58,003 bases of DNA from Caldifarciminota bacterium (lineage in GTDB: Bacteria; Hydrothermota; Tepidihabitantia; SM23-42), in NCBI GenBank assembly GCA_020349965.1, contig CP070705.1, forward strand, positions 1,750,355 through 1,808,357. The letters run 5' to 3'. Shown here piece by piece: positions 15,202-37,490 of this stretch. A program made the position numbers and the translations under genes. The first letter of the stretch is position 1. Each line of letters opens with the position of its first letter. A model generated the notes under the pieces. It saw only the letters and a list, made by a program, of their open reading frames with translations, was not told where the DNA came from and did no database searches.

Positions 15202-15444
15202 TTGCTTCACTGGGCGTGGTTTTTATTACTTCTCGATACGCTTGATTATGTCCAAAGAACGACCCCTTGTGCTCAAAGGACATGGGAAGTTTGCTGAAAG
15301 ATACGCGGCGATGGTCGACACTGAGTCCCATAATGTCGAATAAAAGCGTCGGCCCTGCGCAGACATTTGTGACAGGCGTTGTGAGTGATATGTGACGTCA
15401 GGGGTTATATTCAATAGAGATTTTTGATTGTAAAAGGAGGAAGC

Positions 15445-19914: not shown

Positions 19915-20934
19915 TTACTTGATCTTGACGATCTTTTCTGGTTGAAAACCATCAATGTAGACGAAATAAACACCTTCCTTAAGATTCTGGCCGACTATGT
20001 TGCTCGTTTGTCTTGCAGTAAGTCTGCCGGTTACGTCGAAGATTCGTATCTCGGTTGGTGGTTCTATCCCTTTTATTTCTGTGCTGTGCAAGAACGGATT
20101 CGGGCCGATCTTCAGATGAGAATAGTTTGCCGTAATAGTCGGTGTTTCCGCAATGCCCACTGCCTCATCGAGTGCTGCAACGGTAGGTAGGTTCATTACT
20201 GTCCAGGCGATCGGTTCAGCCGGTGTAGTCGCGGCCACGTCTCCGGCTGCCCGGTAGTAGACCGTGTCTATTCCATTGAAAACCGGATGCAGCGCAAAAT
20301 TAGAGAAATATAGGTCGGTTGGTGTGAGGTTGCTGATTCCCGCTGTCATGTGGAACGCATTGGCGATGGGATTTATATTTACGTTCGGACAGCCCAGGTT
20401 GTCGCCCATGATGAGAATCCCACCCGTTTCGGAGAGCCAGTCAAAAACATTGTCGATGAACGGCACGTTGTCTGCGTAAGAGAGATACATATTCTCGCAG
20501 AAATTCATGTCGCCGGTCAGCAGCACCCTCTGGTTGTCTTGATCATAAAAGCTCACGAGCGAGTCAACCTCTTCTGCAGTATAAGCGCTGTTCCAATTGT
20601 TGACGAGGTTGATGAGCACTACGTCATACTGCATGAGGTCCACGGTGTGCACGCCGGTACCGCAATAATCAACGGTGTAGCCGCTGTCGGCAAGATTTGC
20701 GAGAAGAGTTGAATAGCGGATAGAGGGGACATAGTTGAGGTATGTGCCGTGGGTGGTATCCCATAAGACGCTGTGCTGCCTCAGCGGTCCGACTGTCGGG
20801 GTCTCTACTTTTTCGTGAACTAGGACAGCGGGGCAGCCAGTTGTCACATCGGTCGGCATTGCATCAGCGTGTAACATATGCGTGAAACCGATTAGCGCAA
20901 TTAAGACAGTAAGCACACTACTTTGACGAACCAT
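19915..20934 (-). CDS. Secreted protein with ThuA/DUF4350-like domain and sorting tail
   Basis: A 339-residue exported protein. The start is ATG 20934, preceded by AAAGGAGGATAGT; the frame is open ten codons further without a ribosome-binding site. A signal peptide covers residues 1-24. The region after residue ~55 (HSVLWDTTHGTYLNY..., then MQYDVVLINLVNNWNSAYTAEEVDSLVSF, then RVLLTGD and GGILIMGDNLG) resembles glutamine-amidotransferase-like DUF4350/ThuA domains, without a catalytic Cys that I can identify. It ends in a short sorting tail (LKIGPNPFLHSTEI, EIRIFDVTGRL, EGVYFVYIDGFQPEKIVKIK). Role unknown; surface-located. Confidence 0.8.
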   Translation of the reverse strand: MVRQSSVLTVLIALIGFTHMLHADAMPTDVTTGCPAVLVHEKVETPTVGPLRQHSVLWDTTHGTYLNYVPSIRYSTLLANLADSGYTVDYCGTGVHTVDLMQYDVVLINLVNNWNSAYTAEEVDSLVSFYDQDNQRVLLTGDMNFCENMYLSYADNVPFIDNVFDWLSETGGILIMGDNLGCPNVNINPIANAFHMTAGISNLTPTDLYFSNFALHPVFNGIDTVYYRAAGDVAATTPAEPIAWTVMNLPTVAALDEAVGIAETPTITANYSHLKIGPNPFLHSTEIKGIEPPTEIRIFDVTGRLTARQTSNIVGQNLKEGVYFVYIDGFQPEKIVKIK

Positions 20935-20984
20935 ACTATCCTCCTTTACTTTACAGAATTGCACGTAATACTATGCATGAACAC

Positions 20985-21390: not shown

Positions 21391-21483
21391 AGGCATATAC
21401 TTTCAAACTTTTGCCAGTACTTCGGAACTTCTCCTCGTAAATTCATTCAATGTCGAAACAGAAAAGTTTAAAAGTATATGCCT
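21391..21483. repeat. REPIN-like element with 22-base imperfect inverted repeats
   Basis: AGGCATATACTTTCAAACTT (21391-21410, plus TT) and its complement at 21462-21483 match at 21 of 22 positions across a 49-base centre. GGGGAC directly outside the left end is partly mirrored on the right. There is no ORF inside. It separates the divergent VOC and lipoprotein genes. Confidence 0.65.
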
Positions 21484-21496
21484 ATCACCATCGATA

Positions 21497-21524
21497 TTGA
21501 CATGAGGAGGCGGATTTATACACT
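21497..21524 (+). promoter_or_regulatory. Promoter TTGACA-16-TACACT for the 21556 gene
   Basis: TTGACA at 21497-21502 and TACACT at 21519-21524 with a 16-base spacer. The leader is about 25 bases, with GGGAGGAAGG before ATG 21556. Confidence 0.5.
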
Positions 21525-21555
21525 ATCACATATTCTGTATACCCAGGGAGGAAGG

Positions 21556-21960
21556 ATGAAGAAGCTATCGCTGTACCTGTTGGTGATCTCTATCGTCGGG
21601 ATGAACTGTGGTGGCGAACAGTATACAAGGTTGAATCTTGTCTTCGGCGAACAGCCTGAGGGTGGTAGGGATGTCACAGAAATCAGGTGTTATGTTGTTG
21701 GCCGTCTGGAGGGAGGTTCTACACCGATACAAGCAACTCTGCAGGCATGGTGGGCTGATGAGATCGGCGTCGATGATACACTGTACGCATATGACACGTG
21801 GACATTCAGGTATGACGATGTTTTCGAAGAACTGCGGATCATATTGCAGACACCGCCGGGTTATGTCTGGCTCGGATATTTCTGGTTCAGCTGTTACTGG
21901 ACGGACGGGGACGGTACGTACAACGAGATATTCAGCGACACGGCATACTGCTATCAGTGA
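21556..21960 (+). CDS. Small exported protein or lipoprotein of unknown function
   Basis: A 134-residue protein. The start is ATG 21556 behind GGGAGGAAGG; the frame is open upstream to 21478, but that stretch covers the promoter. Residues 1-18 form a signal ending in Cys18 (LYLLVISIVGMNC), a weak lipobox. The mature part is rich in aromatic residues and strands (AWWADEIGVDDTLYAYDTWTFRYDD, WLGYFWFSCYWTDGDGTYNE). It looks like a small beta-sandwich; the family is not recognised. Confidence 0.7.
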   Translation: MKKLSLYLLVISIVGMNCGGEQYTRLNLVFGEQPEGGRDVTEIRCYVVGRLEGGSTPIQATLQAWWADEIGVDDTLYAYDTWTFRYDDVFEELRIILQTPPGYVWLGYFWFSCYWTDGDGTYNEIFSDTAYCYQ

Positions 21961-22070
21961 GGTGCTGACAAGTTAACACACTTCTCGGCGAGAGTGGCCA
22001 GTACGCCGAACCGTGGAGATGGAGGGCGAACACAAGTAACATCGCCGTAACCTTTCTTTCATCGCTGTAA

Positions 22071-22095
22071 TCATGGAAGGCGAAGCCTTCCGGGT
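22071..22095. repeat. Repeat hairpin, copy 1 (second copy at 37434)
   Basis: A stem GGAAGGC / GCCTTCC with a GAA loop sits inside a 25-base block that is identical at 37434-37458. Similarity extends leftwards through ACATCGC(C/T)GTAA. It touches the stop codon of the HerA-type ATPase gene. There is no T-run on either strand. Confidence 0.75.
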
Positions 22096-24614
22096 TAAGG
22101 TTTGCGCCAGGCAGATATGCGCGCGCTTGTCTCGGTGCCGCTGGCAGTTCGATATCCGATTTCCCAATAAGGGATCCAGGTGAGACTCACCATTTCCACG
22201 GCGCAATCGCTCTTCTTTGGTCTTACCTTATAGGTCGTGATTTTCTCAATCTTCGTCGCCCAGAGATCATTGATATCATCGACATTGTGTTCCATCCGAC
22301 TACGGATTTCCTGGACTTCGTTCTGGAGTCTGGCGATCTCCCTTACTGATTCATCAACGTCTGCCTTTGCCTTTGCGGTCATGCGTCTCTTGCGGGCTGC
22401 TTTGGAGAAGGCGGTGGTTGGCCGGCGCCGGCCAAATACCCCTAACACGCTTATGATACTCTCTCCTGCAGAGAAGATCTCTTCCCGTTTGTGCCCGGCG
22501 TATCTTGCCTGATCCTGAGTCAATTCCTGTTGTTCTTCGTAGAGTTTTGATTCGAGCCTCTGGAGTTGGGCGGTGTATTTACGCCTTAGTTTATCCACTT
22601 CAGCATCCCGTTTTTCCCGAATGAAATGCTGGACTCTTATCCTGAATTCGTGCTCCGATTCATATGGTTGTCCGTAGATATTGGCGATTGCATGGTAATA
22701 CAAATTCAACACATTTTGGTGGCACAGGTAGTCTAGAAAATCCTTGGATAATGCTTTGAACTTGGCCGGAGTGTTAAGTTGCTTTGGTACTGGTCCGAAC
22801 CGGGCATCAGCCTCAGGTTGTTGAGCCAGGACGGTGGGGTCAATGTCGACACATTCTGCGTCTTCCCAGCGTATCATTCCGCTGACTTTTGACGGGTCGA
22901 CAAGCAATACTTTTTTCTGAAGTTCATCGATATGGATCTTGCGGTCGATGAAGTGGATGTTTCCCCATGCCAGCAGGCTTGGCTCGTAAACGAGTGTACT
23001 TTGGGTCTGCTCAGTCTTCTGGTGGATCTGTTCGGCCAGGGCAGTGAGCGCATCGACACTGTTCACCCGAACCGGGAGGAAAGTCTGCGGTAATTCTGGG
23101 GACAACCGCGGAAGATCTTCAGTGTATTTTGCGGCAATGGACGGTCGTGGCATAGGTTCTGCAGAAGGTTGAGTTGCGGCGGCAGCCGGCGCTTTTTCCT
23201 CCGTAATGCCAGCCATGAGGTCTTTGAGCTGAATACGGGTGAGCGGGCCCCGTAAATAACTCATCGCCCATCTTGTCTGGAAGATAATCGCGTGATCAGC
23301 ATGGACATTGTGGAGCAGGAAAACGCGTGTGCCGAGCGAAGAGATACTCTGGTTGAGCTGACGCCGGTTCATCTTGCTGCCGGCTTCGCTGATCGCCGAC
23401 TCTAATCCATCCAGGACACGCATTTTGTCCCGGTCGGTCTGCAGCTTGCCGATGAACCAGGCGCCGGCATTTGTCAGTCCCTTGTAATCAAGGTCAACCG
23501 GGTTCTGCGTGGTGAGCACGACGCCAAAACCAAAGGCACGCGCCTGCTTCAATAAGGTGAGCAGGGGTTTCTTTGATGGAGGGTTTGCGACCGGCGGGAA
23601 AAATCCGAATACCTCGTCAAAGTAGAGCAGGGCGCGCAGACTTGTTGTGCCCGATTGTTGTCTCACCCAAGTGAGAACCTGTTCAAGCAGTAGCGTGACG
23701 AAGAACATCCGCTGCTGATCGCTGAGATGGGCAATGTAGAAGATGCTGTGACGCGGTTTTCCGTCGGGAGAGTACAAGATCCGGGAGATATCAAAAGGCT
23801 CACCCTGCAGCCATAAGTCAAAACTCGGCGCGGCAATAATATTGTTAAGCAACATCGCCAATTCAAACCGTTCTTTTTCCGGGAAAAAGGTGTCGGTATC
23901 AAAGACACCCAATTGACGGACCGGCGGCGTCTGGATCGCGGCAATGAGTTTGGCAAGATCAAGGTCTTCGCCGCGGCGCCAGAAGTTTTCGAAAATATTG
24001 GACAGCAGAATGTGCTCGCGGCTCCTTATCGGGTCGGCATCAATGCCGACAAGACCGATCAGGGCGCTTACCGTACCCTGAATCTTGTCACGCAATAATT
24101 CCTCATTTTCACTCCAACTTAGTTTGGGCGCACTGAGTGATGACAGAATGGAGACGGACAGTCCGGCATCAGAACCCGGGGTATAGATGAGAAAATCTGC
24201 GCTTTGTTTGAACATGCGGATGCGCTCCGAACCCTGATCCCATTCTTTGAGGCCGTTTTGCCATGTCTGGGCAATGTACTTGGCGTATTGTTCCGTTGTC
24301 ATATCCTTGCGGCGCGCATCGTCGGGATTTACCCATGGCGCAAAATCTTCAGGCCGCAGGTCAGGGAATGCGAGCAGCATATTGGTGATATCGCCTTTTG
24401 GATCGATTATTATTGCCGGGACACTATCGATCGCAGCTTCCTCGAGCAGATCAATGCATAGACCGGTCTTGCCCGAACCCGTCATTCCGACACAGACCGC
24501 ATGTGTGGTCAGGTCGCGGGCGTCGTACATGACCAAATGCTCGAGCAGTTTCTTTGCAGCGAGGTCGTACTCCTTGCCGAGATAAAAGCTGCCGAGTTTT
24601 TCAAAGGGCTGCAT
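22095..24614 (-). CDS. HerA/FtsK-type ATP-binding protein (DUF87-like)
   Basis: An 839-residue protein. Residues ~1-460 form a HerA/FtsK-superfamily ATPase: KEYDLAAKKLLEHLVMYDARDLTTHAVCVGMTGSGKT with Walker A GMTGSGKT, then AIIIDPKGDI, Walker B ALLYFDEVF and the sensor-like VVLTTQNPVDLDYKGL. Residues ~480-840 are a linker and charged coiled coils (VDKLRRKYTAQLQRLESKLYEEQQELTQD...) ending in a small conserved-looking domain (VEMVSLTWIPYWEIGYRTAS). HerA-like ATPases move DNA or remodel protein complexes; the NurA nuclease partner is absent here, so the function is open. The start is ATG 24614 with AAGGAGGTTTGTC; a likely promoter lies 80-105 bases upstream. It is probably a single-gene transcript. 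Confidence 0.88.
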   Translation of the reverse strand: MQPFEKLGSFYLGKEYDLAAKKLLEHLVMYDARDLTTHAVCVGMTGSGKTGLCIDLLEEAAIDSVPAIIIDPKGDITNMLLAFPDLRPEDFAPWVNPDDARRKDMTTEQYAKYIAQTWQNGLKEWDQGSERIRMFKQSADFLIYTPGSDAGLSVSILSSLSAPKLSWSENEELLRDKIQGTVSALIGLVGIDADPIRSREHILLSNIFENFWRRGEDLDLAKLIAAIQTPPVRQLGVFDTDTFFPEKERFELAMLLNNIIAAPSFDLWLQGEPFDISRILYSPDGKPRHSIFYIAHLSDQQRMFFVTLLLEQVLTWVRQQSGTTSLRALLYFDEVFGFFPPVANPPSKKPLLTLLKQARAFGFGVVLTTQNPVDLDYKGLTNAGAWFIGKLQTDRDKMRVLDGLESAISEAGSKMNRRQLNQSISSLGTRVFLLHNVHADHAIIFQTRWAMSYLRGPLTRIQLKDLMAGITEEKAPAAAATQPSAEPMPRPSIAAKYTEDLPRLSPELPQTFLPVRVNSVDALTALAEQIHQKTEQTQSTLVYEPSLLAWGNIHFIDRKIHIDELQKKVLLVDPSKVSGMIRWEDAECVDIDPTVLAQQPEADARFGPVPKQLNTPAKFKALSKDFLDYLCHQNVLNLYYHAIANIYGQPYESEHEFRIRVQHFIREKRDAEVDKLRRKYTAQLQRLESKLYEEQQELTQDQARYAGHKREEIFSAGESIISVLGVFGRRRPTTAFSKAARKRRMTAKAKADVDESVREIARLQNEVQEIRSRMEHNVDDINDLWATKIEKITTYKVRPKKSDCAVEMVSLTWIPYWEIGYRTASGTETSARISAWRKP

Positions 24615-24690
24615 GACAAACCTCCTTATGCACAATGTCTACGAAAATGAATTCACTGCCGTTGGGCAGGATGAAATGGCATACACTACT

Positions 24691-24758: not shown

Positions 24759-26996
24759 CTACGTCTTTGCCTTCAACTCAGCCAAGCGCTTCTTGGCGTC
24801 GATCTTTTCTGTCCGGTCCTCATCCGCGTTCTTCCAGAGATTCAAAAACTTTTCATATTCAAACACGGCCTTATCATTGAGGCTCTTTTCTTCATAAAGT
24901 TTCGCTAAACGGAAATGGTATTTTGGGTGAATGAGACGGCGGTCGTTATTTTCTGTACCAAATCTAACGATTTGCTCATATTGATTAATTGCTTTATCCA
25001 AATTTCCATTTACTAAATACATGCGCGCTGAGATATCCTTTATATAAGGCAGAATATATCGTAAGCCAAAGAATTCATCGATCGCAATCAAATAAGTCTT
25101 CTTAAAGCGATATGGGATTTCTCGTTTTGCATTGATATTTTTTCCTAAAGATTTTTCGGCAATACACATTTCGTCATCAAGAATACCCAGCTGATATTCG
25201 ATTTCACTCTTGTCTCTTGGATCATCGCATTTCGACGTGTATTGCCTTATTTTTGTCATTTTCTGTTTTGCTAATGGCAATTGCTTTTTCGTGATATCTA
25301 CATAACACAGCCAGCAATTAAGATAAGCTTTAAGAAAGTATTGTCTTTTGGGACTTACCTTTATACGATATTTTAAGGCTTCTCGAAAAAACGTTCTGCT
25401 CTTACGATACTTCTTCTTTTCAAAATAGATCCACGCCCGCATTAGTTCGACGCAACTCAAACCTCCAGCATTCTCAACAGTTTTATAGAATTTTTCTGCG
25501 CTCAGCAAGTATTCAAGCGCCTTCTCAAGACTACCAAGCCAATAATTATAAAAACCATACCACATATAAACATGTGCTAACGAACCGGCGAATGTAACTT
25601 TTTCTTGTTCCTGTTTAAGCAGATTATTCATTTCTTCGTAGTTTTCCTGAAATGCATAAATATACGAGAGTTTCAAATTTGTTCTATACATCTTTGGCTC
25701 AATTTTCAACGCGAGTTTAAGATTGCTTATCGCTTTATCCAAATTCCCTATCTGAAAATATATTTCACCGGCAGAATCATAAGCATTAGCATTATCGGGG
25801 CTTAGCTTTTTATATTTTTCGATGCACTCGATTGCTTTTGCGTAATTTCCGAGGTCAGCGTTATCAAAACTAATATAATTCCATATCTCGCTGTCATTAG
25901 GATACAATATTAGTTCCTTTTCGTACTCCTTGAGTGCCTCATTAAGCATATATTTTGTCCGGTATGCAATACCTAACCAGCAATGTGCATTTTTTTCCTT
26001 GGGATACTTACTCAAGAGTATTTTTAATATTTTTATTTGTTTGTCCACATCGCCCTCGATCTCATGCGCATAACGTGATCTTATCCATAATTTCTCTTTT
26101 TCGCTAATATTTTCGGATAGTTGCATAGCTTTTTCGAATAATTCTTTGAATGTTTTCGTATTGCCCGCATATCGATTTATTAAGGCAAGAATATAGTAAG
26201 CCGCGGCGAATGCCGGATCGATTTGTATTGCTTTTTCAAGTAATTCCCTTGCTTTCTCATGGTAGAATTTCTCAAAAGCTTCTTTTCCCTCCAAATAATA
26301 ACTATATGCTTCAATCGATGACGTCGTAACATCGGATATGTGTAATCCACTCTTGTCGATCAAGGATAAGGATAAACCAACACCTTGAGAAATTACACTG
26401 CTCAATTCGTCAATTTGAGTTTCAAGTATGCTATCAATACCTTTTGCCTTTGAATTTGCTGTCTTGAGCAGTTGCTTTGATGATACATCAAGAATCTTCA
26501 GATCAGTCGCAAACATATTACCAGCTTTTGTGAAACATCCCAGCACAATATTATCTACCCCATCCAGCTTGCATAGCTCAAAACCCAGTTTATCATTGAT
26601 TGTTTTAATCTCCTCCTTACCCAGGATTTCCAACAGATCATGCATGCGCTCCCAGGTCATGACACTGAGATACTTTGATTGTTCCAGATTGGTGATCAAT
26701 AGGTTCGGTATTGCTTCAGAAAGGTAATCAAAACTTGTGTCGCCGGTAAGATTCTTGAAGGGCATGACGGCAATGGGCCGGCGTTCGGCAGGTATAGGGA
26801 ATTGTTCTTCGATTACCTTTGCGTATGCCTTTGTATCGATCTTCGTCAGTGTTATTTCAGTTGTGCTGACAACAAACGGGAATCGTCTGGCAAACCTAAC
26901 TTCTTTCTTGGTAAAGGGCACGATGACCTGAAGATAACCAAAGACCAGGGCGATGATGATGCCGACGATGGTGAGTATGAGGGTAATTGGATCCAT
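24759..26996 (-). CDS. FlgO/TolB-like plus TPR membrane protein, paralogue 1 (AT-rich)
   Basis: A 745-residue protein. One N-terminal transmembrane helix (about 4-28, ITLILTIVGIIIALVFGYLQV) is followed at ~73-215 by a FlgO/TolB-N-like domain (IAVMPFKNLTGDTSFDYLSEAIPNLLITNLEQ..., VMTWERMHDLLEILGKEE). A long array of TPR repeats (~225-740) ends in the shared KIDAKKRLAELKAK. It lacks the second, basic-flanked membrane helix of its two paralogues. The TPR centre is clearly more AT-rich and more lysine/isoleucine-rich than the neighbours, while both ends match them, suggesting a mosaic or diverged gene. It is last in a seven-gene minus-strand operon, 6 bases after paralogue 2, with no ribosome-binding site of its own. 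Role unknown; a cell-envelope scaffold is inferred. Confidence 0.85.
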   Translation of the reverse strand: MDPITLILTIVGIIIALVFGYLQVIVPFTKKEVRFARRFPFVVSTTEITLTKIDTKAYAKVIEEQFPIPAERRPIAVMPFKNLTGDTSFDYLSEAIPNLLITNLEQSKYLSVMTWERMHDLLEILGKEEIKTINDKLGFELCKLDGVDNIVLGCFTKAGNMFATDLKILDVSSKQLLKTANSKAKGIDSILETQIDELSSVISQGVGLSLSLIDKSGLHISDVTTSSIEAYSYYLEGKEAFEKFYHEKARELLEKAIQIDPAFAAAYYILALINRYAGNTKTFKELFEKAMQLSENISEKEKLWIRSRYAHEIEGDVDKQIKILKILLSKYPKEKNAHCWLGIAYRTKYMLNEALKEYEKELILYPNDSEIWNYISFDNADLGNYAKAIECIEKYKKLSPDNANAYDSAGEIYFQIGNLDKAISNLKLALKIEPKMYRTNLKLSYIYAFQENYEEMNNLLKQEQEKVTFAGSLAHVYMWYGFYNYWLGSLEKALEYLLSAEKFYKTVENAGGLSCVELMRAWIYFEKKKYRKSRTFFREALKYRIKVSPKRQYFLKAYLNCWLCYVDITKKQLPLAKQKMTKIRQYTSKCDDPRDKSEIEYQLGILDDEMCIAEKSLGKNINAKREIPYRFKKTYLIAIDEFFGLRYILPYIKDISARMYLVNGNLDKAINQYEQIVRFGTENNDRRLIHPKYHFRLAKLYEEKSLNDKAVFEYEKFLNLWKNADEDRTEKIDAKKRLAELKAKT

Positions 26997-27002
26997 GATT
27001 GC

Positions 27003-29279
27003 TTATCTTGCCTTCAACTCAGCCAAACGTTTCTTGGCGTCGATGAACTCCGGCCGGTCAGCATCTGCGGTCTTCCAGATGTCGAGAAATTTTTGGTATT
27101 GCTGGATCGCCTTTGCTTTTAGATCCCGTTGGTCATACAGTTTTGCCAGCTCATAACGCCAGAGAGGACGGATGAGGCAGCGGCCCCGTTTATTCGGGTC
27201 AGGGTCAGTCAGCCGTTCGTATTCAAGGATGGCTCGGTTAATATCGCCTTTCTTGATGTAAGCGCGCGCGGCTACATCTACGGCGAAAAAATTCTCAAAG
27301 AATATATTGGTTCTATTTGGGTCGTGCACAATGGCCCCTGACGCCTTCTGACCTAACGCGATGGCCTTGTCCACCGAATCTTCAGCGAGCAAGAGTTCGG
27401 CGTATAGAGCATGTTGATACATACGCATTTCTTCTCTGTCCCGAGAGATGATGATATCAGGCAGTAGAGAATCTATGATAGCGAGCCTCGTTCTTGCTGA
27501 ATTATGCTGTTCCTGCTTCAGGTCGATAATTGCCAGGCAAAAGTTAGAGTCTACTACGGATAATGCCGGGTCGTGCCAACCTGCCTGATAGCCACAAAAC
27601 CTCAAGTAATCACGACTTCGTTCATACTCCTGCACACTGTAGTACACCCATCCCCTTACCCATTCTGTAACCGCCTTATCTTCTTCAAATTCTGTTGGGG
27701 ACAGTATGTGTTTAATCGTGTCGAGATCGTTGATGGCTTGGTGAAAGTTGCCCAAGTGTGCGTCATAGAAAGCCTTGCGGCGATATCCATGTGCTTTAAT
27801 ACCAGGAGAGGGTGCCACGGTGATATTTTGCCCTATCCATTTTAATGCTCCTTCATAGTCTTCCTGTAAAGCGTGAATGTAGGCGATCTTCAGATTCGCA
27901 TCCCAAAAATCAGGTTTGACATATATCGCTTCCATGTATTTTGCCAGCGCATCATCCAGCCGTCCCATCTGAAAATAGAGATCGCCCATGGAATCGAACG
28001 GGTTGGCATCGCCGGGGAAAGTCGCTGCATAGAATTTGAAATATTCTATCGCCTTATCATAATCACCAATCTCGGTATATATATACGCGAGATCCATTAT
28101 TGACCAGCCATATGTTGGATCAAGCGCCAGGGCGATTTTGCTTTCTTTGATTGCTGCGCCATAATCTTTCTCAACCGCCCAGTAATAGACACCTAAGAAA
28201 CGGTGCGCGCGCTTGTCTTTGGGATATTTCTTCGGCAATAACTTGAGGATACGAAATCTTGTCTCTAGATCGTTTTCTATATCGCGTGCGTACCAGGCAT
28301 CGATCCAGAGTTTTTCTCTGTCGGTTGCCTTATGGGACAATGCCTTAGCTTTTTTGAGCGCCTCAGTATATGCTTCACCATAATCCAATCCTCCGAATGC
28401 GAAGGCGAGATAGAGATAGGCAGAAGCAAAGGTTGAGTCAATCTCAATCGCTTTCTCCAGATACCGTGCTGCCTCTTCAAAGTAGAACTTCTCATATTCG
28501 TCGCGGCCGCGCAGGAAGTAGTTGTAGGCTTCCATTGAGTTAGTAGTCACATCTTCAATGTTGAACTTGGTCGTTTCTATCACCCGTTCATATCTACTCA
28601 CACCCCTGGCAATATCCTTGCTCAGTTCATCGATCTGGGTTTTCAGGATGCTGGCAACACCCTCGCCGTCTGAACTGACGCTCTTAAGCAGTTTCTTGCT
28701 TCTGACATCGAGCACCTTTGCCTCGGTGACAAACATGTTCCCGGCCTTGGTAAAACTGCCGATGACAATTGCGTGAATATCATCCATTTCGCAGATCTCA
28801 AAACCCAGATCTTCGTCCACCGCACGCGCGTCTTCTTTGCCGAGGATTTTCAATAGGTCGTGCATGCGTTCCCAAGTCATGATGCTGAGATGCTTTGACT
28901 GCTCCAAATTGGTAATGAGCAGATTGGGTATCGCCGCGCAGAGGTAATCGAATTGCTCGTCGCCGGTGCGATTGGTGAAATTGATGACAGCGATCGGTAC
29001 CTGCTCGATCGCCTTGGCCTGGAAGACAAGAAATCGTATGAGTACAAACAGAATTATCAGAATCCCGATTGCCAACCCAGGGATGAGGAAACGTTTTCTC
29101 TTTTTCTTCTTGCGTCGGTGTGGTTTTGCTGCAGGGGCCGCTTCGGCAGTTTCCACAAAGGGAAAGCGGCGCGAAAACCTCACTTCGCCCTTGATGAACG
29201 GCACCACAACCTGCAAATAACCAAAGATTATTGCGATGATGATGCCAAGAATAGTAAGCAAGAGGAATATGAGTTCCAT
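27003..29279 (-). CDS. FlgO/TolB-like plus TPR membrane protein, paralogue 2
   Basis: A 758-residue protein. A transmembrane helix at ~3-27 is followed by a basic cluster (HRRKKKKRKR) and a second transmembrane helix at ~68-90 (LIPGLAIGILIILFVLIRFLVF). Next come the FlgO/TolB-N-like domain (IAVINFTNRTGDEQFDYLCAAIPNLLITN..., ~97-235) and about twelve TPR units to residue ~745. TolB-N/FlgO-like domains before TPRs are also seen in adenylate-cyclase-type and kinase-type receptors; no catalytic domain is present here. The N-terminal ~270 residues are nearly identical to paralogue 3 while the TPR part has diverged. It lies 14 bases after the TonB-receptor gene. Confidence 0.88.
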   Translation of the reverse strand: MELIFLLLTILGIIIAIIFGYLQVVVPFIKGEVRFSRRFPFVETAEAAPAAKPHRRKKKKRKRFLIPGLAIGILIILFVLIRFLVFQAKAIEQVPIAVINFTNRTGDEQFDYLCAAIPNLLITNLEQSKHLSIMTWERMHDLLKILGKEDARAVDEDLGFEICEMDDIHAIVIGSFTKAGNMFVTEAKVLDVRSKKLLKSVSSDGEGVASILKTQIDELSKDIARGVSRYERVIETTKFNIEDVTTNSMEAYNYFLRGRDEYEKFYFEEAARYLEKAIEIDSTFASAYLYLAFAFGGLDYGEAYTEALKKAKALSHKATDREKLWIDAWYARDIENDLETRFRILKLLPKKYPKDKRAHRFLGVYYWAVEKDYGAAIKESKIALALDPTYGWSIMDLAYIYTEIGDYDKAIEYFKFYAATFPGDANPFDSMGDLYFQMGRLDDALAKYMEAIYVKPDFWDANLKIAYIHALQEDYEGALKWIGQNITVAPSPGIKAHGYRRKAFYDAHLGNFHQAINDLDTIKHILSPTEFEEDKAVTEWVRGWVYYSVQEYERSRDYLRFCGYQAGWHDPALSVVDSNFCLAIIDLKQEQHNSARTRLAIIDSLLPDIIISRDREEMRMYQHALYAELLLAEDSVDKAIALGQKASGAIVHDPNRTNIFFENFFAVDVAARAYIKKGDINRAILEYERLTDPDPNKRGRCLIRPLWRYELAKLYDQRDLKAKAIQQYQKFLDIWKTADADRPEFIDAKKRLAELKAR

Positions 29280-29293
29280 ATCAGGTTATCTTC

Positions 29294-32041
29294 TTAGAAT
29301 TCGATGCCAATACCAACCTGTGCCCTGAATCCGTGGTTATAATACACCGGATTTTCATAATAGTCAGCGAGCATGTCAATCCACTCCTGTTTGTATTCGA
29401 TTGGTGTGATTAGACCGTCGTGGCTGTGGTCAGCCTGCGGTGAATAATAGTAGCTCGATATTGAGACGTTGCCAAACTGGTCAAGAGGCGGCTCAGGATC
29501 ACCGTGGTCATCAGGTTTGCCAGTTGTGCTGTAGACATACAGCACCTGCTCTGTGTTAAAAAGGTTGTAGATGATACCGTTAAGAACAAGATCTATCGGA
29601 CCGATTGAAAAACGTCGTCGGAGTCTGAGATCGACATTCCAGAACCCGGGCATGCGCGCGGAATTCTCTTCACCGAGCAGGTTACCGCGCAGATCTCTTG
29701 GTGTGTATGGAAAGCCGGAATGGAAAGCTATGACAATTGAACTTAGGAAATCTTGGAGCGGTACAAAGAAGAAATTTCCAGGCAGCTCGACATCAATATT
29801 AGCATGTATCGAATGCCTTTCGTCAAAATCCAACCAGTGGTCAATGACCGGAACAGATGTTCCATAGTACCAATTGTCGTACCACCATTCTGTTGCATCG
29901 GCAGCAGTGCCTTTGGCGAATTGCAGGGTGTAGTTGATACCCAATGCCCACATGTTCGACATCTGCTTGTTCAAGTTTATTTCAAATCCCTTTACGTTGC
30001 CGTAATCAACATTTACGTAATGAATGTAGGAGCTCGGAATTGCCAGAACCTCACGTATCTGAAGCAGATCGTATATGTCCTTGAAGTATGCAGTGAAGCC
30101 AAAGGCAACATCATCGGTCAATAGGGTTTCTAAGCCAATTTCATACATTACAGTCCTCTGTGGTTCAAGCGTTATGTTGCCTATAAAATTACCTCGGTAT
30201 ACTTGTATTCTCACGGGTGCGATCGTATCTGTCCACAAATAATAAGGATCAAAGTAAGGAAATTGAAAATAATGGCCGTAGTTGAAACGGAATTTCATAC
30301 GGTCAGTTACAGGCAGTGAGATACCAATCCGGGGTGAAATCGTATGATTTATTTTTGAACGCAAAATTGAATCATTCTCCCAGTCAGTCGGTGCGGCATA
30401 AGTAAAAGCCTTGGGGTCAAAATAGTCAAATCGTACACCTAAACGGGCAATGAGACCGCCAAAGTCCATCTTATCTTGGATAAAAGAAGCGATTTTATAG
30501 GGACGTTTATCGTAATAGTCCCAGCTCTCGATTATCCGCATTGAACCACGATAGGGGAATATACACCTATATCTGACAAAATCGAGTCCAGTCTTTAGCT
30601 CATGAACCTTGCCACTGGAGTGTGTCAGATCGAAACGCATTTGATAATCATCGTTCTGCCGATAAAACCACCGGTTATAATCACCATAGGTAAAAAACCA
30701 CCCGTCCATGCCATAGGGGCTATGACGCAGGGCAAGAATGCCGGTGTTATCCGGTTCGATGTGATACTGCAAGACACTGTCTACGAGCACGTCTCGTACT
30801 GGCAGAGTACCGTCAAGAATATAGTCTATTAAGTGCTCGGCCTTCAATCGATAGTCATCATACCATTGCCTGCCGGCCGAATCTTCCCATGCGTAATCGC
30901 GCGCGCCCAGGGCGCGTTCGTAGTGTGTAATTCCCGCATTCAAAGAAACGAGGGTTTTCGGCGTTATCATATAGTTTACCTTTCCCGAGGCCATCCAATT
31001 CTTTATTCGATTCATCGGTTTACTGTCAGAATACTTTGCCGTGTTAGGATCGTCTGTATATCTATCCCAGTATATCCACTGCCTGCGCTCATTGAATCCG
31101 CTGAGTGTAATCTTACCCTTTGCATTGGGCAGAAGATAAGATAACCTTGCCTGTGCCCGGTAATCCATGCGCGGAGACGGAACCTTATAACGTGCTTCCT
31201 GGTACGCATCGGTCAGCATCAGTTCGCCAGATAAGAAATAGCGGATGCGTGAGGCCAGGAGCGTGGGCCCGCCTAAGGAGAATTCATAGCGGTTATAGCC
31301 GTAGTGCACGCGGTCATGTCCCGAAAATATCTCATCCGTATAATAATGTAGTGCACCGGTGTGTTTAATGCCGCCTTCTTTGGTTGCGATGTTGACGATG
31401 CCGGACAGGGCATCGCCGTATTCAGCATCGAACCCGCCGCTCACCATGGTAATTTCTTCTACGGTCGAGTAACTCAGTATTGCTGATTGTTGACCGTAAT
31501 AAGGTTCCCTTGCGATAATGCCGTCTACATAGTACATGACTTCGTCAGGTCTTCCGCCGCGGACGTGCGTGCCACGGTAACTCTGCACAACACCGGGTTG
31601 AAGACCGACGATTTCATCGAGTGTCGTCGCGGGCAAGCGCTTCATTTCATCTGCGGTGACGGCGCGGCTCGTTGAGGTCTCGGAAACGATGATCATCGGC
31701 CGCTCGGCTACTGAGGTAATCCCACCGACCTCAATGACTGCCGGTGACAGGCGGAAGTTTAGGCGTGTGATCTGATCCGCATGCACGACGACGCTGATGT
31801 ATTCGTATGGTGTATAACCGATGTATGATGCGGAGATCGCATAGGTTCCAACTGGCACATAGAGGACTGCGTATGCACCATTTTCGTCGGTTGCCGCGCC
31901 ACATTCTGTTCCTGTGACCATTACGTCAGCGCCAGCGAGTGGGTTGCCGGTTTCACGGTCAACTATCCTGCCGGTAATCCGGCCAAAATCGCCGGCAAGA
32001 AGAAGACCGCAAGCAGTGAAAATGCATAATATTGATCTCAT
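29294..32041 (-). CDS. TonB-dependent outer-membrane receptor with CarboxypepD_reg domain
   Basis: A 915-residue protein. Signal peptide 1-17, then a carboxypeptidase-regulatory-like domain (~20-105: GRITGRIVDRETGNPLAGADVMVTGT...). A plug domain (~120-225) has MKRLPATTLDEIVGLQPGVV, RGGRPDEVMYYVDGI and GGFDAEYGDALSGIVNIATKEG. A ~22-strand beta-barrel ends in the terminal Phe of outer-membrane proteins (VGIGIEF). It imports or transduces for an unknown ligand using the proton-motive force through TonB/ExbBD, none of which is in the window. The ribosome-binding site is GAAGGAGGCGGACC. It lies between two FlgO/TPR paralogues in one operon, 12 and 14 bases from them, so the TPR proteins probably act with it. 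Confidence 0.95.
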   Translation of the reverse strand: MRSILCIFTACGLLLAGDFGRITGRIVDRETGNPLAGADVMVTGTECGAATDENGAYAVLYVPVGTYAISASYIGYTPYEYISVVVHADQITRLNFRLSPAVIEVGGITSVAERPMIIVSETSTSRAVTADEMKRLPATTLDEIVGLQPGVVQSYRGTHVRGGRPDEVMYYVDGIIAREPYYGQQSAILSYSTVEEITMVSGGFDAEYGDALSGIVNIATKEGGIKHTGALHYYTDEIFSGHDRVHYGYNRYEFSLGGPTLLASRIRYFLSGELMLTDAYQEARYKVPSPRMDYRAQARLSYLLPNAKGKITLSGFNERRQWIYWDRYTDDPNTAKYSDSKPMNRIKNWMASGKVNYMITPKTLVSLNAGITHYERALGARDYAWEDSAGRQWYDDYRLKAEHLIDYILDGTLPVRDVLVDSVLQYHIEPDNTGILALRHSPYGMDGWFFTYGDYNRWFYRQNDDYQMRFDLTHSSGKVHELKTGLDFVRYRCIFPYRGSMRIIESWDYYDKRPYKIASFIQDKMDFGGLIARLGVRFDYFDPKAFTYAAPTDWENDSILRSKINHTISPRIGISLPVTDRMKFRFNYGHYFQFPYFDPYYLWTDTIAPVRIQVYRGNFIGNITLEPQRTVMYEIGLETLLTDDVAFGFTAYFKDIYDLLQIREVLAIPSSYIHYVNVDYGNVKGFEINLNKQMSNMWALGINYTLQFAKGTAADATEWWYDNWYYGTSVPVIDHWLDFDERHSIHANIDVELPGNFFFVPLQDFLSSIVIAFHSGFPYTPRDLRGNLLGEENSARMPGFWNVDLRLRRRFSIGPIDLVLNGIIYNLFNTEQVLYVYSTTGKPDDHGDPEPPLDQFGNVSISSYYYSPQADHSHDGLITPIEYKQEWIDMLADYYENPVYYNHGFRAQVGIGIEF

Positions 32042-32053
32042 GGTCCGCCTCCT

Positions 32054-34327
32054 TCACAGACTGGTGGCCATCAACTTTGCCAGCCTTTTCTTTGCATCGA
32101 TCTTTTCTGGCCGGTTCTCATCCGTGTTTTTCCAGATGTTGAGGAATTTCTCGTATTGTTCGATTGCTTTTGTTCTAAGACCTTTTTCTTCGTATAATTT
32201 GGCCAGTTCGTAGTGCCAGGTTGGACGTATAAGGCACCGTCCTCGTTTATTGGGATCAGGATCAGTCAATCGTTCGTACTCAAGGATGGCTTTATCAAAG
32301 TTGCCCATTCTACAAAAGGCTCTGGCTCCTACGGTTCTGTCAAATGGTTGGTGTACCCCGTATATCATCTCTGCTGGTGCAATATCTATTTCGAATTTCG
32401 GTTTCTCTTCAAATACTACGATGGCTTTTTCGAGTGAATCCTGTGCGAGCAGTAGTTCAGCGTAGAGAAGGCTGTAGCAAAATTGCGCTGGATCTGTGTA
32501 CCAAGTAGACACATTAGGTAATATGGATCTGATTGTAGCAAGTGTTGTCTTTGCCGAATCAAGATTCTTCTGTTTCAACAATGTTAACCCTAGGTAATAA
32601 TTGTATAGGACAGTATTGGCCGGTATTTTAGGGAATTTCGGATAGCAGTTCTCAAGATATTTGCGACTCAGCTCAAGCTTGCCAAGATCATGATATATCA
32701 GTGCTCTCGCCATACCTACGAGTCCCATTCCCATCTCAAATTCAGTTGGTTTGAGTAGATTTTCTGCTGTATCGAGATTGGCGAAGGCTCGATCGAAATT
32801 CCCTAATAAGTAGTAGTAGAATGATTTTTGCTGGTAGCCGCCCATTTGCACACTTGGAGATTGAGCGACGGCGATAAAATGGTCGACCCATTCTATTGCT
32901 GCAGCATAATCTTCCCTTAGCGCGTAAAGGTAAGCCATCTTTCCACATGAAAAATAGAAATTCGGTCTAGCAAATAACGCTTCTTTGTATTGAGCAAGCG
33001 CATCTTCAAGTTTCCCCATTCGAAAATAGAGGTCACCCATAGAATCGAACGGATTGGCATCGCCCGGTGACACGGCTGCGTACCGCTTGAAATATTCGAT
33101 TGCCTTTACATAATCTCCCAGAGTGGTGTTTAAATAGGCCGTTCTACGCAAGGCTGCTCCATAGTGTGGATCAAGTTCCAGTGCTTTGTGTAACTCTTCT
33201 ATCGCTTTGTTGAACAGCTCCTTTGATTCGTAATAACGGGATATTCGTATGTATACGTTCTTTTCTTTGGGATATTTTTTTGCCAGTTGTTTGAGGATGC
33301 GTAATCTTTTCTCCGGTTCTTCTTCTATAACACCTGCGTATGATGCCATGATATATAGTCTCTCTTTCTCGCTGACAAGATCCGAGAATGCGTAGGCCTT
33401 TTCAAGGATTTCATTGGATTCTTTATAATCGTTCAGCATATCATATGTCCAGGCAAGATAGAGGTAAGCAGAAGCAAAAGTAGAATCGAGCTCAATTGCC
33501 TTCCGGAGGAATTTTTTAGCATCGTCAAAATAGAATTTCTCATAATCGTCTCTGCCCCTCAGGAAGTAATTGTAGGCGTCCATAGAGGTAGTAGTTACGT
33601 CGACAATGTTGAACTTCGTTGTTTCAATTACGCGCTCGTATCGGCTCACGCCTCGCGCAATATCCTTGCTCAGTTCGTCGATCTGGGTCTTCAGGATACT
33701 GGCAACGCCTTCGCCGTCCGAGCTGACGCTCTTGAGCAGTTTCTTGGTTTGGACATCGAGCACCTTTGCCTCGGTGACAAAGGTGTTCCCGGCCTTGGTA
33801 AAACTACCGATGACGATAGTATGAATATCATCCATTTTGCAGATCTCAAAGCCCAAGTTCTCATCGACCGTAGGCGTGTCTTCTTTGCCGAGGACTTTCA
33901 ATAGATCGTGCATTCGCTCCCAGGTCATGATACTGAGGTGCTTTGATTGCTCTAAGTTGGTGATCAGCAGATTCGGGATCGCCGCGCAGAGATAGTCGAA
34001 TTGTTCGTCACCTGTGCGGTTGGTGAAATTGATCACGGCGATGGGTACCCGCTCGATCGCCTTGGCCTGGAAGATGAGGAATCTAATGAGTACAAAAATG
34101 ATTATCAGAATCCCGATTGCTAAACCGGGGATGAGGAAGCGTTTTCGCTTCTTCTTTTTGCGCCGGCGCGGCTTTGTGGCAGCCACGGCTTCGGCGCTTT
34201 CCACAAAGGGAAAGCGGCGCGAAAACTTTACTTCGCCCTTGATGAACGGCACCACCACCTGCAAATAACCAAAAATCACAGCAACTATAATACCTAGGAT
34301 TGTGAGGAATAATGATATTATGTCCAC
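32054..34327 (-). CDS. FlgO/TolB-like plus TPR membrane protein, paralogue 3
   Basis: A 757-residue protein starting with GTG at 34327 behind AGGAGATCA. The architecture is the same as paralogue 2: transmembrane helix ~3-27, basic linker RRRKKKKRKR, second transmembrane helix ~68-90, FlgO/TolB-N-like domain ~97-235 (IAVINFTNRTGDEQFDYL..., MTWERMHDLLKVLGKE), then TPRs to ~745 and the shared end KIDAKKRLAKL. DNA identity with paralogue 2 is very high over the first ~800 bases and in short TPR blocks (for example around 33010-33070 and 27970-28020), a pattern expected from gene conversion. It is the first of the three paralogues to be transcribed, 52 bases after the protease gene. Confidence 0.88.
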   Translation of the reverse strand: MDIISLFLTILGIIVAVIFGYLQVVVPFIKGEVKFSRRFPFVESAEAVAATKPRRRKKKKRKRFLIPGLAIGILIIIFVLIRFLIFQAKAIERVPIAVINFTNRTGDEQFDYLCAAIPNLLITNLEQSKHLSIMTWERMHDLLKVLGKEDTPTVDENLGFEICKMDDIHTIVIGSFTKAGNTFVTEAKVLDVQTKKLLKSVSSDGEGVASILKTQIDELSKDIARGVSRYERVIETTKFNIVDVTTTSMDAYNYFLRGRDDYEKFYFDDAKKFLRKAIELDSTFASAYLYLAWTYDMLNDYKESNEILEKAYAFSDLVSEKERLYIMASYAGVIEEEPEKRLRILKQLAKKYPKEKNVYIRISRYYESKELFNKAIEELHKALELDPHYGAALRRTAYLNTTLGDYVKAIEYFKRYAAVSPGDANPFDSMGDLYFRMGKLEDALAQYKEALFARPNFYFSCGKMAYLYALREDYAAAIEWVDHFIAVAQSPSVQMGGYQQKSFYYYLLGNFDRAFANLDTAENLLKPTEFEMGMGLVGMARALIYHDLGKLELSRKYLENCYPKFPKIPANTVLYNYYLGLTLLKQKNLDSAKTTLATIRSILPNVSTWYTDPAQFCYSLLYAELLLAQDSLEKAIVVFEEKPKFEIDIAPAEMIYGVHQPFDRTVGARAFCRMGNFDKAILEYERLTDPDPNKRGRCLIRPTWHYELAKLYEEKGLRTKAIEQYEKFLNIWKNTDENRPEKIDAKKRLAKLMATSL

Positions 34328-34379
34328 TGATCTCCTGACGCTTAAGTTAGTGCATAGCTGCCTAAAACTCTCGATGTAC

Positions 34380-35477
34380 TCAGCGCAGGCGCACTATTTC
34401 GATCTTATTATCCCGCGGTTTTGAATTGCGAATGTCGTAAAATCCCTCGAGATTCTTTTGCTGATAACCAGCCGCGAGTATGACCGCGCTATATTTATTT
34501 TCGATGGGTAACATGAATGGTATGCGGAACCTGCCGTCAAGACCGCTTTTTATCCATATATAGGTTTTCTCTTTCCAATTTTCATTAGTGACCTCACTGC
34601 ACTCGATACCTGGTAGTAGCACAAAAAAGGCCGCACCAATGACACCTCTTCCTGTCTCAGCATCAATAATCCGGCCGCTGACCGGTGCGCCCAGTTCTGT
34701 CTCTGGTACCCACGCACCGATCATCTCGCGCACACGATTCACTGGCAGGATATATCCCTTATAGCCGGCGAGACCATGATAGGCGAATGTTGGAGCACCA
34801 ACGAGTTTGCCCTCGCGATTGACAGCTGCGCCACCACTATTTCCAGCGGAAATTTCTGCATCTGTTCCGATCAGCATACGGATCCTGGGTAAATCCTCAC
34901 TCGAAATGATGTTTGTGACCATGCCCCTGGAACAATTGACCGAGCCGAATGCATAGTCTGGATAACCTATGGTGTAGATATCATGCCCGACCTGGATGTC
35001 TTTGTCCGAATCGCCAACATGGATGTAATAAGGAAAGAGATTAGCATCCTCGGCCAATGGTAAGCCGGTGTTGTCGCGGGTGCATTTGAGCAAGGCGTAA
35101 TCAGATTGTAGGGGAACGTATTTCAGGTAATCTTTTGCTTCTGCGTAGTATAAGAATATTGGACTCTGATCTGGGGCATGATTGTAACATATCTGGATGT
35201 TGTCGGCAAAGTACCATTCAGAATCTGCAGGATCTTGATAGAAAGCAACATGATAGTTCGTAAGAATCCATCCACTTGGGCTCAGAACGGTTCCTGAACC
35301 GCCCCAATATAATGTGGTGTCCTGGTCATTGATCTTGGTCTGCACCGAACCATAGATGAGGACCGTCGAATGAAGTGAATTATTCAGGTCCTTTTCAGAG
35401 ATTTGTCCTTGCGCTGAAGCAATGATCAGCGCATAGGATATGATCAGGCCAATTATTGATCCATGCAGCACTTTCAT
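34380..35477 (-). CDS. Exported S1C-type serine protease with C-terminal regulatory-like domain
   Basis: A 365-residue protein. A signal peptide spans 1-22. A trypsin-like (HtrA/S1C-type) domain covers ~30-250 with the full triad: His76 in LTNYHV, Asp126 in QSDYALLK and Ser214 in SAGNSGGA; the oxyanion GNSGG is intact. Instead of a PDZ domain it carries a carboxypeptidase-regulatory-like Ig fold (~265-360: APVSGRIIDAETGRGVIGAAFFV...). It should cleave or monitor proteins in the periplasm. The ribosome-binding site is AAGGAGGGAACCG. It is third in the operon, 11 bases after the anchored-protein gene. The TonB receptor of the same operon has the same type of Ig-like domain. Confidence 0.92.
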   Translation of the reverse strand: MKVLHGSIIGLIISYALIIASAQGQISEKDLNNSLHSTVLIYGSVQTKINDQDTTLYWGGSGTVLSPSGWILTNYHVAFYQDPADSEWYFADNIQICYNHAPDQSPIFLYYAEAKDYLKYVPLQSDYALLKCTRDNTGLPLAEDANLFPYYIHVGDSDKDIQVGHDIYTIGYPDYAFGSVNCSRGMVTNIISSEDLPRIRMLIGTDAEISAGNSGGAAVNREGKLVGAPTFAYHGLAGYKGYILPVNRVREMIGAWVPETELGAPVSGRIIDAETGRGVIGAAFFVLLPGIECSEVTNENWKEKTYIWIKSGLDGRFRIPFMLPIENKYSAVILAAGYQQKNLEGFYDIRNSKPRDNKIEIVRLR

Positions 35478-35488
35478 CGGTTCCCTCC

Positions 35489-36064
35489 TTACTGTATCTG
35501 AATGCTTCTCAGAATCCTGTGAAAGGAAGGTAGATTTCTATGATATTCTCTTTCTTCGGCTGCGAGGGTAATAATGTAGACTCTTCCATTGTAGGGAAGG
35601 ATGACATCGAATGCGCGGACAATTATCGGAACAGAAATTACGCCAGCCTGTACACCAATAGGGTCGAACGCATATGCATATTCCAATTTCATCGCTTTCA
35701 AATCATTCACTTGAAAGGGATTCAATGAGATGGTACGGTAAAGAGGGAGAGAACTTCCCCTCTTAGCGGTGAGTTCAACGATGAAATTGCCAATTTCGAT
35801 GTCTTCATTCCACTCCTTCGAAGCTATCACAAGTTTAGTATTGAATATCGAGGGAGTCAGTGGGTCCAACACTTCCAGAAGTGCATCTTCTTCTTCTGAC
35901 GTAAGCCAAGATGCAGGATAATGCAGTGAGATCCCGGCTTCTGGATCATCAAATTCAATTGTTCTGCTTTCAACCCCTGCCTTGACAAGCCAGCCGATAA
36001 GAAGGCAGGCGATCACAGACACCAACACTATTGGGTCCCAATGTTTGTCAACTGTGCCCATCAT
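35489..36064 (-). CDS. Single-pass membrane protein, PsbP-like soluble domain suspected
   Basis: A 191-residue protein. Residues 10-29 form one transmembrane helix (PIVLVSVIACLLIGWLVKAG). A strand-rich domain follows, beginning TIEFDDPEAGISLHYPASW, with YIITLAAEEREYHRNLPSFHRILRSIQI at the end. That opening (a line ending in HYPASW) and the closing SFHRILRSI resemble PsbP-like/DUF1795 domains, which is a tentative match. It would be anchored in the inner membrane facing the periplasm. The ATG overlaps the stop of the PrsW-like gene by four bases (ATGA), and AAAGGAGGC inside that gene serves as ribosome-binding site. Confidence 0.75.
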   Translation of the reverse strand: MMGTVDKHWDPIVLVSVIACLLIGWLVKAGVESRTIEFDDPEAGISLHYPASWLTSEEEDALLEVLDPLTPSIFNTKLVIASKEWNEDIEIGNFIVELTAKRGSSLPLYRTISLNPFQVNDLKAMKLEYAYAFDPIGVQAGVISVPIIVRAFDVILPYNGRVYIITLAAEEREYHRNLPSFHRILRSIQIQ

Positions 36065-36912
36065 GCCTCCTTTGTTTTCGGGGACGTCCTTGCTGCCTGA
36101 AGGGCTACTGAGTGTCGGATCAATAGCTCAACGATTGTGTAGACGATTATGACAATAATGATGCCGGCAATGAGGCTATTCCAGGGGTTATATTCCATGC
36201 TCCTGATCACAACTGCTCGCTGTACCCAGAAGAATATTCCATTCAACACGGCAGCCGCGAGGATACCCGTCATAAGCCGCCATTGGCTATAATCTTCGCG
36301 AAACTTAACCATTGCCAGGGAGTAACCGATGACCGAAGCGAAGCTTGCATAGGCGAGCGCGTTTATGACACAGAATATGGCAGAAATTACGAGTTTGGCG
36401 CCGCCTAGTTCGATCACGCGGTAGATATTCAGAACGGTCGCAAAGCCTAACCCTGCTGCAGTTGCATAGATGACGCCGTCGATCCATTCGTCGAATTCCT
36501 TTGTTGGATAGACCGTGTACCGGATTGCCAGATATATCAGAAATTGATACACCACGCCGACGACAAGAATTGATCCCAGGATGTAACCCCAAGTTGTCAA
36601 ATACACCCAAGCTTGTATTTTGAATACGTGTTTGACCACGGGAATGCCAATTAAGTATGCCAAGAAGGCGCCCAAAAGAAAAACTCCGAATACATAGTGC
36701 TTTGGCTCGGGTTCCAACCTGTCACGCTGATAAAAGAAGCTCAGCCAGACTAATGCCGGTATGAGTGAGAAAATAATGCCCCAAAATATCAGTAACCCGG
36801 TCGTAGGGTCGGTCTTGGTTAGCGAGACGATCAGTTGCACGATGAGCACGAATAGGACCAGCGAGACAATTTGAAACCCTCCGCTTTTCCATATTATTTT
36901 GTGTGCTCTCAT
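36061..36912 (-). CDS. PrsW-like membrane protein lacking the protease residues
   Basis: A 283-residue protein with about eight transmembrane helices and the PrsW/RsiW-protease layout: FFYQRDRLEPEPKHYVFGVF after helix 2, EFDEWIDGVIYATAAGLGFATV in the middle, SFASVIGYSLAM later. The residues that make PrsW an intramembrane metalloprotease are missing. The EExxK position reads VYQFL (121-125), the Glu of FAxxEN is Leu161, the His of the HxxF motif is Tyr188, and the later His is Asn224. I infer a pseudoprotease that may bind but not cut membrane proteins. The start is ATG 36912 with GGAGGAGGTAAA; the frame extends 20 codons further without support. It is the first gene of the minus-strand operon. 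Confidence 0.82.
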   Translation of the reverse strand: MRAHKIIWKSGGFQIVSLVLFVLIVQLIVSLTKTDPTTGLLIFWGIIFSLIPALVWLSFFYQRDRLEPEPKHYVFGVFLLGAFLAYLIGIPVVKHVFKIQAWVYLTTWGYILGSILVVGVVYQFLIYLAIRYTVYPTKEFDEWIDGVIYATAAGLGFATVLNIYRVIELGGAKLVISAIFCVINALAYASFASVIGYSLAMVKFREDYSQWRLMTGILAAAVLNGIFFWVQRAVVIRSMEYNPWNSLIAGIIIVIIVYTIVELLIRHSVALQAARTSPKTKEA

Positions 36913-37308: not shown

Positions 37309-37336
37309 AGTATAGAAAAATAAGTAACTTTGTCAA
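37309..37336 (-). promoter_or_regulatory. Promoter TTGACA-16-TATACT reading toward the PrsW-like operon
   Basis: On the minus strand TTGACA (37331-37336) and TATACT (37309-37314) are 16 bases apart. If it drives the operon starting at 36912 the leader would be about 390 bases, unusually long for this window. I found no gene in 36913-37308. Confidence 0.6.
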
Positions 37337-37433
37337 GATATACGGTAGTATTGTGACGTCTGCGATGCGGAAGAGGTGTCCAGCGAAAGCGAAGATGGTG
37401 ACATCGCTGTAATCTGTTCTTCTGCAGTTATTA

Positions 37434-37458
37434 TCATGGAAGGCGAAGCCTTCCGGGT
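37434..37458. repeat. Repeat hairpin, copy 2 (first copy at 22071)
   Basis: The 25-base block is identical to 22071-22095, with stem GGAAGGC / GCCTTCC and GAA loop, and is preceded by a degenerate ACATCGCTGTAA stretch also present in copy 1. It ends four bases before the -35 box of the DUF4159 promoter. Confidence 0.75.
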
Positions 37459-37462
37459 GGGC

Positions 37463-37490
37463 TTGACACTCTAGAGAACCAACTTATAAT
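37463..37490 (+). promoter_or_regulatory. Consensus promoter TTGACA-16-TATAAT, leaderless DUF4159 transcript
   Basis: TTGACA at 37463-37468, 16-base spacer, TATAAT at 37485-37490. The ATG at 37498 follows after only 7 bases, at the expected transcription start, with no room for a Shine-Dalgarno sequence. Confidence 0.8.

Follow-up and report, generated by a model that had tools for sequence, protein, structure and literature searches.

PrsW-family and HtrA-type proteases have roles in stress signalling, and receptors of the TIGR04510-like family, which join a Ser/Thr kinase or guanylate/adenylate cyclase to a TolB_N/FlgO-like domain and a TPR array, are found in Aminicenantes, Ignavibacteria, Bacteroidetes, and WOR-3. 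To our knowledge, TonB-dependent protein secretion is known from one bacterium only. In Myxococcus xanthus, export of the protease PopC depends on the outer membrane protein Oar, which acts together with ExbB, two ExbD proteins, and TonB, and the CarboxypepD_reg extension is dispensable for PopC secretion (PMC6434023). PopC is a subtilisin without a signal peptide.

The window analysed here, a stretch of 58,003 nt from a 2.30-Mb genome assembled as a single contig, contains relatives of several of these proteins in one block on the minus strand. By its named relatives in GTDB, the genome was placed in the phylum to which candidate division WOR-3 belongs. Seven adjoining cell-envelope genes occupied nt 24759–36912 with gaps of -4, 11, 52, 12, 14, and 6 nt, and both the spacing and the gene families given in a preliminary description were found as claimed. 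In 5′ to 3′ order, domain searches assigned them to a PrsW-family protein (g7, nt 36061–36912), a TM-anchored protein (g6, nt 35489–36064), a trypsin-like protease (g5, nt 34380–35477), TPR protein C (g4, nt 32054–34327), a TonB-dependent transporter (g3, nt 29294–32041), TPR protein B (g2, nt 27003–29279), and TPR protein A (g1, nt 24759–26996), all with intact reading frames. The ATG start of g7 at nt 36912 was preceded by GGAGGAGG. The strongest promoter-like site of the region on the minus strand, TTGACA-16-TATACT (nt 37309–37336), matched the sigma-70-type consensus at 11 of 12 positions and was located about 400 bp upstream of g7; in shuffles of the spacer upstream of g7, an 11/12 site on one strand arose 14 times in 2000, and none was present on the minus strand inside the seven genes. 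Thus, the seven genes are predicted to form one transcription unit, and the operon proposed earlier is likely. No Rfam match at the gathering score was observed between nt 21900 and 37600.

The product predicted for g3 possessed Pfam domains CarboxypepD_reg (E 1.5e-18), Plug (E 7e-9), and OMP_b-brl_4 (E 2e-9), that is, the PF13620 extension, plug, and TBDT barrel by which it is classed as an Oar-type TonB-dependent transporter. No STN domain was detected in it by Pfam, so that cell-surface signalling of the FecA type is not expected, and no sigma/anti-sigma or regulator genes were present within the cassette block; on these two grounds, a TonB-dependent transducer was rejected. A SusCD pair was rejected as well, as TIGR04056 scored 54.7 bits versus a cut-off of 368 and SusD had no match. 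Members of the g3 family were found in nearly every relative, the best match being 63% identical. The main copy, in many relatives as well as in this genome, belonged to a conserved ExbB-ExbD-ExbD-TonB-lipoprotein-receptor locus, while other copies stood alone. In WOR-3 genomes the lipoprotein and the Oar-type receptor of this locus are followed by a large exported protein without a Pfam match; the locus was observed at L115:3055-12376 and L110:2415-7809, and also in L113, L116, and L118-L122, and resembles the ton-oar cluster of M. xanthus.

Comparison with Oar/PopC showed three points of likeness: the PF13620 extension and plug of g3 in a protein free of STN, the encoding of the WOR-3 receptor family together with ExbB-ExbD-ExbD-TonB, as in the ton-oar cluster (PMC6434023), and the association of a protease with the receptor, here at the level of the genes. 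There were also three differences: g5 is trypsin-like with a signal segment, whereas PopC is a subtilisin without one; the g3 copy lies apart from the Ton genes; and the TPR proteins and the PrsW-like protein of the cassette have no counterpart in M. xanthus.

The predicted g5 protein began with a hydrophobic signal segment and contained a Trypsin_2 domain (E 1e-18) in which the His (TNYHVA), Asp (SDYALL), and Ser (GNSGG) residues were visible, its best solved relatives being DegQ and HtrA (E about 1e-9). It is thus trypsin-like, as are DegS, DegQ, and DegP, but the domain search revealed no PDZ domain, and a CarboxypepD_reg-like domain took the C-terminal place. The assignment to S1C proteases in the preliminary description therefore holds for the domain with the His-Asp-Ser residues and not for a C-terminal PDZ. 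Similarly, the carboxypeptidase-regulatory domain said to be common to protease and receptor was a true homologue (BLASTP E 6e-6 against g3 and 2e-6 against the receptor of a relative), although the Pfam match in g5 (E 0.0019) fell below the cut-off. Among 120 relatives, g5 matched generic HtrA domains only, at no more than 36 bits versus a self-score of 840. The g6 protein was TM-anchored with a sub-threshold match to PsbP (E 6e-4), had no homologue in other genomes of the phylum (147 genomes), and gave only a poor, uninformative single-sequence structure model (mean pLDDT 35).

The g7 protein matched Pfam PrsW-protease (E 2e-12, above the cut-off) and NCBIfam intramemb_PrsW (E 3e-22), scoring 79 bits in the latter versus an equivalog cut-off of 225. 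Alignment with 13 relatives, including an ordinary PrsW encoded elsewhere in the same genome (nt 1537813–1538367), showed the changes EE to QF, K to Y, EN to LN, PGH to NAL, and HGxYD to NGIFF; consequently the glutamates and lysine of EExxK, the Glu of GFAxxEN, the His of PGH, and the His and Asp of HGxYD, all of them present in PrsW proteases, were gone from g7. In contrast, RDRLEPEP and EFDEWIDGVIYATAAGLGFAT were retained, corresponding to the non-catalytic motifs RDxxEPEP and EFDEWxDGxxYATAAGLGFAT of the family. That every catalytic motif is lost while scaffold and reading frame are preserved points to a pseudoprotease held by another constraint, and the earlier designation of g7 as such is strongly supported by the alignment. 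Its relatives in 120 genomes were PrsW-family proteins only (25% to 41% identity), and those aligned had ordinary PrsW motifs. Our literature search found no paper on PrsW as a pseudoprotease, and g7 offers a clear test case for pseudo-intramembrane-proteases.

The three TPR paralogues were, as had been described, proteins with a membrane anchor and a domain of the TolB_N/CsgG/FlgO superfamily. This domain was weak in single sequences, and the TolB_N, CsgG, and FlgO models matched 19, 18, and 17 of 25 family members, respectively. An AF2 model of C (mean pLDDT 88.5) showed TM helices at residues 3–29 and 65–87, an alpha/beta domain at residues 94–227, and a TPR solenoid; Foldseek matches of C were dominated by the TPRs, and a profile search by sequence found no solved relative of the TolB_N-like domain. 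The second TM helix found in B and C was missing from A, and judging from charge distribution the domain and TPRs should lie in the periplasm in B and C and in the cytoplasm in A. In other phyla, the N-terminus of most members of the family is formed by a Ser/Thr kinase or a guanylate/adenylate cyclase domain. With these receptors A, B, and C share the same TolB_N-like domain and TPR array at about 35% to 54% identity, but a short hydrophobic anchor (a hairpin in B and C, a single helix in A) replaces the enzymatic N-terminus. By sequence, their membership in the Ser/Thr-kinase/cyclase receptor family is firm. No full-length kinase form of this subfamily was found in their own genome.

B and C were 92% identical in the TolB_N-like domain versus 44% in the TPRs. 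In a tree of the TolB_N halves they were sisters (support 100, distance 0.08), while in a tree of the TPR halves C grouped with G009 (support 96) and B with G010 (support 77), the distance between B and C being 1.76; synonymous divergence was dS 1.0 in the anchor/TolB_N half versus saturation in the TPR half. These trees and distances firmly indicate proteins with near-identical front halves and TPR halves of different ancestry, a mosaic for which gene conversion in the front half or a swap of the TPR half would be a better explanation than selection alone. Together, the swap of enzyme for anchor and the constant/variable mosaic suggest that receptors can become scaffolds with changeable specificity. 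Several arrangements of related genes were also observed. In two WOR-3 relatives, a Ser/Thr kinase-TolB_N-TPR gene is directly followed by a similar 502-aa gene (L052:6974-11451, where the two overlap, and L053:6381-10858); the 502-aa neighbour in G010 is a GAF-sigma54-Fis activator, so the two are a candidate kinase/activator pair. Two or three kinase-TPR paralogues occur in tandem in congeners (G003:C1:436550-443473 and G007:C1:570606-574027). In G005 (L128:1495-2649), the N-terminal anchor motif GYLQ..VPF.KGEV.F..PF of the TPR proteins precedes, in the same reading frame, a lipoprotein-like protein that is otherwise unrelated; the anchor may be a module that moves, or the fusion may be accidental.

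A gene outside the set described earlier, which encoded a HerA-like ATPase (nt 22095–24635; DUF87/TrwB matches), followed 123 bp downstream of the cassette; it is co-directional with the seven genes and forms part of their inserted block. This gene and the seven others take up about 15.4 kb and are bounded by imperfect direct repeats of 60 bp on the plus strand, the left at nt 22036–22095 and the right at nt 37398–37458; the copies were identical at 49 of 61 positions, with the last 26 bp, which contain the palindrome GGAAGGCGAAGCCTTCC, exact. In G002, the nearest relative (flanking proteins 84% to 95% identical, most above 90%), the HerA-like and the seven cassette genes were missing, and the equivalent of nt 21478–21960 lay directly before that of nt 37498, with one homologous copy of the repeat; the completeness of this assembly is 67%, but no break falls within the site itself. 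G005 carried the HerA-like gene at this place, together with an HTH/Panacea gene; a different gene, of 416–421 aa, occupied it in G001, G003, and G007. At some positions the two repeat copies agree with each other but not with G002, a pattern that speaks for an insertion in this lineage rather than a deletion from G002. The occupied and empty sites and the border direct repeats are those by which an integrative mobile element is recognized, and no integrase, transposase, or recombinase was encoded between the repeats. Three other readings were considered and rejected: a dispersed repeat as source of the borders (the palindrome occurred in the window at the two borders only and in no fetched locus of relatives), a defence island (PADLOC gave only weak HerA, TPR, and trypsin-domain matches), and a plasmid (no PLSDB record covered 80% of g5 or C). 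Adjoining the right repeat, a perfect 12/12 sigma-70-type promoter, TTGACA-16-TATAAT, was located on the plus strand (nt 37463–37490) for a conserved DUF4159 operon; TTGACA/TATAAT hexamers upstream of the DUF4159-operon gene were also seen in G002, G003, G005, and G007.

None of the other WOR-3 genomes examined contained the full seven-gene set, and the adjacency of the seven families, which the preliminary description had asked to be checked in related genomes, was seen in no relative examined, the outcome that it had named as refuting its proposal. Among 35 named GTDB loci, no relatives of g5, g6, or g7 were found near TPR-family genes, and a TonB receptor followed a TPR-family gene at 0.2–2 kb in two (L091 of Bacteroidetes and L101 of Aminicenantes), which is a weak lead. 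The closest relatives of the TPR and TonB-receptor genes, those of A, B, and C being in G010, G009, and G047 (48% to 62% identity), sit in other, unrelated surroundings. The gene content is thus real and unusual, and it is a private cassette in the genomes examined, not a conserved system such as a sensing machine; since only one genome with the set is known, the neighbourhood carries little functional weight. The strongest findings are the pseudo-PrsW, the kinase-receptor ancestry of the scaffolds, and the mosaic of B and C.

Our preferred reading, to which we give a probability of about 0.4, is an accessory envelope cassette that is specific to this lineage, is probably transcribed as a unit, and occupies a site of variable content, with a proposed transport mechanism. 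Its two parts differ in strength, the cassette and the sequence assignments being very probable and the Oar-like mechanism doubtful. Nevertheless, the likeness to Oar, the same set of Ton proteins, and the homology of the g5 domain to the g3 extension make an Oar-like unit the most concrete proposal, and an assembly or transport role is possible. Under this proposal, g3, powered by the ExbB-ExbD-ExbD-TonB of the genome, would carry a substrate, probably a peptide or protein, through the outer membrane; g5 would either be transported by g3, in the way that PopC depends on Oar, or trim the substrate in the periplasm. The domain common to g5 and g3 need not be a docking tag, because the extension is dispensable for PopC secretion. 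In the inner membrane, the constant TM/TolB_N halves of B and C might hold these two proteins together, with partners selected by their differing TPR surfaces, and the dead PrsW g7 might bind or chaperone a membrane substrate without cleaving it. The more ambitious version, in which transporter, own protease, dead PrsW, and receptors constitute a compact TonB-driven export or processing unit whose partner specificity can be changed by exchange of TPR halves on a half kept constant by gene conversion, is improbable. If the cassette does work as a unit, TonB-dependent protein secretion would extend to a phylum without cultured members, where it would have a protease and scaffolds of its own.

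The genes may instead be independent acquisitions or duplications that piled up behind one promoter in a permissive hotspot and have no joint function. The restriction of the set to one genome, the other contents held at the site by congeners, the unrelated contexts of the relatives of each gene, and the G+C of gene A (0.38 versus 0.44–0.48 in the other six) agree with such co-location, but six gaps of at most 52 bp, including a 4-bp overlap, between co-directional genes, the domain common to protease and receptor, and the intact frames throughout argue against it, and we regard it as somewhat unlikely. The preliminary description had proposed an outer-membrane sensing or assembly system; in the sensing form, envelope stress or a ligand would be sensed by the receptor and TPR proteins and relayed by the protease and PrsW. 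Although TPR-family proteins of other loci are receptors with a kinase or cyclase, and stress signalling involves both the PrsW and the HtrA-type families, here the receptor is devoid of STN, the block of sigma/anti-sigma or regulator genes, and the TPR proteins of the usual kinase or cyclase output, PrsW is catalytically dead, and the search of the genome found no full-length kinase of the subfamily; receptor signalling was thus not borne out, and sensing as a whole is distinctly unlikely. That last finding also weighs against kinase-less TolB_N-TPR proteins acting as decoys or dominant negatives that use their conserved half to bind kinase forms, a highly improbable role for which the almost identical anchor/TolB_N halves of B and C and the kinase forms of congeners would speak.

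Apart from the cassette, several exported proteins with type IX-like C-terminal sorting tails were encoded in the window (nt 1693–4674, 11455–14028, 15424–17100, 17321–18976, and 19915–20964), one of which was a C25 (gingipain/PorU-type) peptidase.
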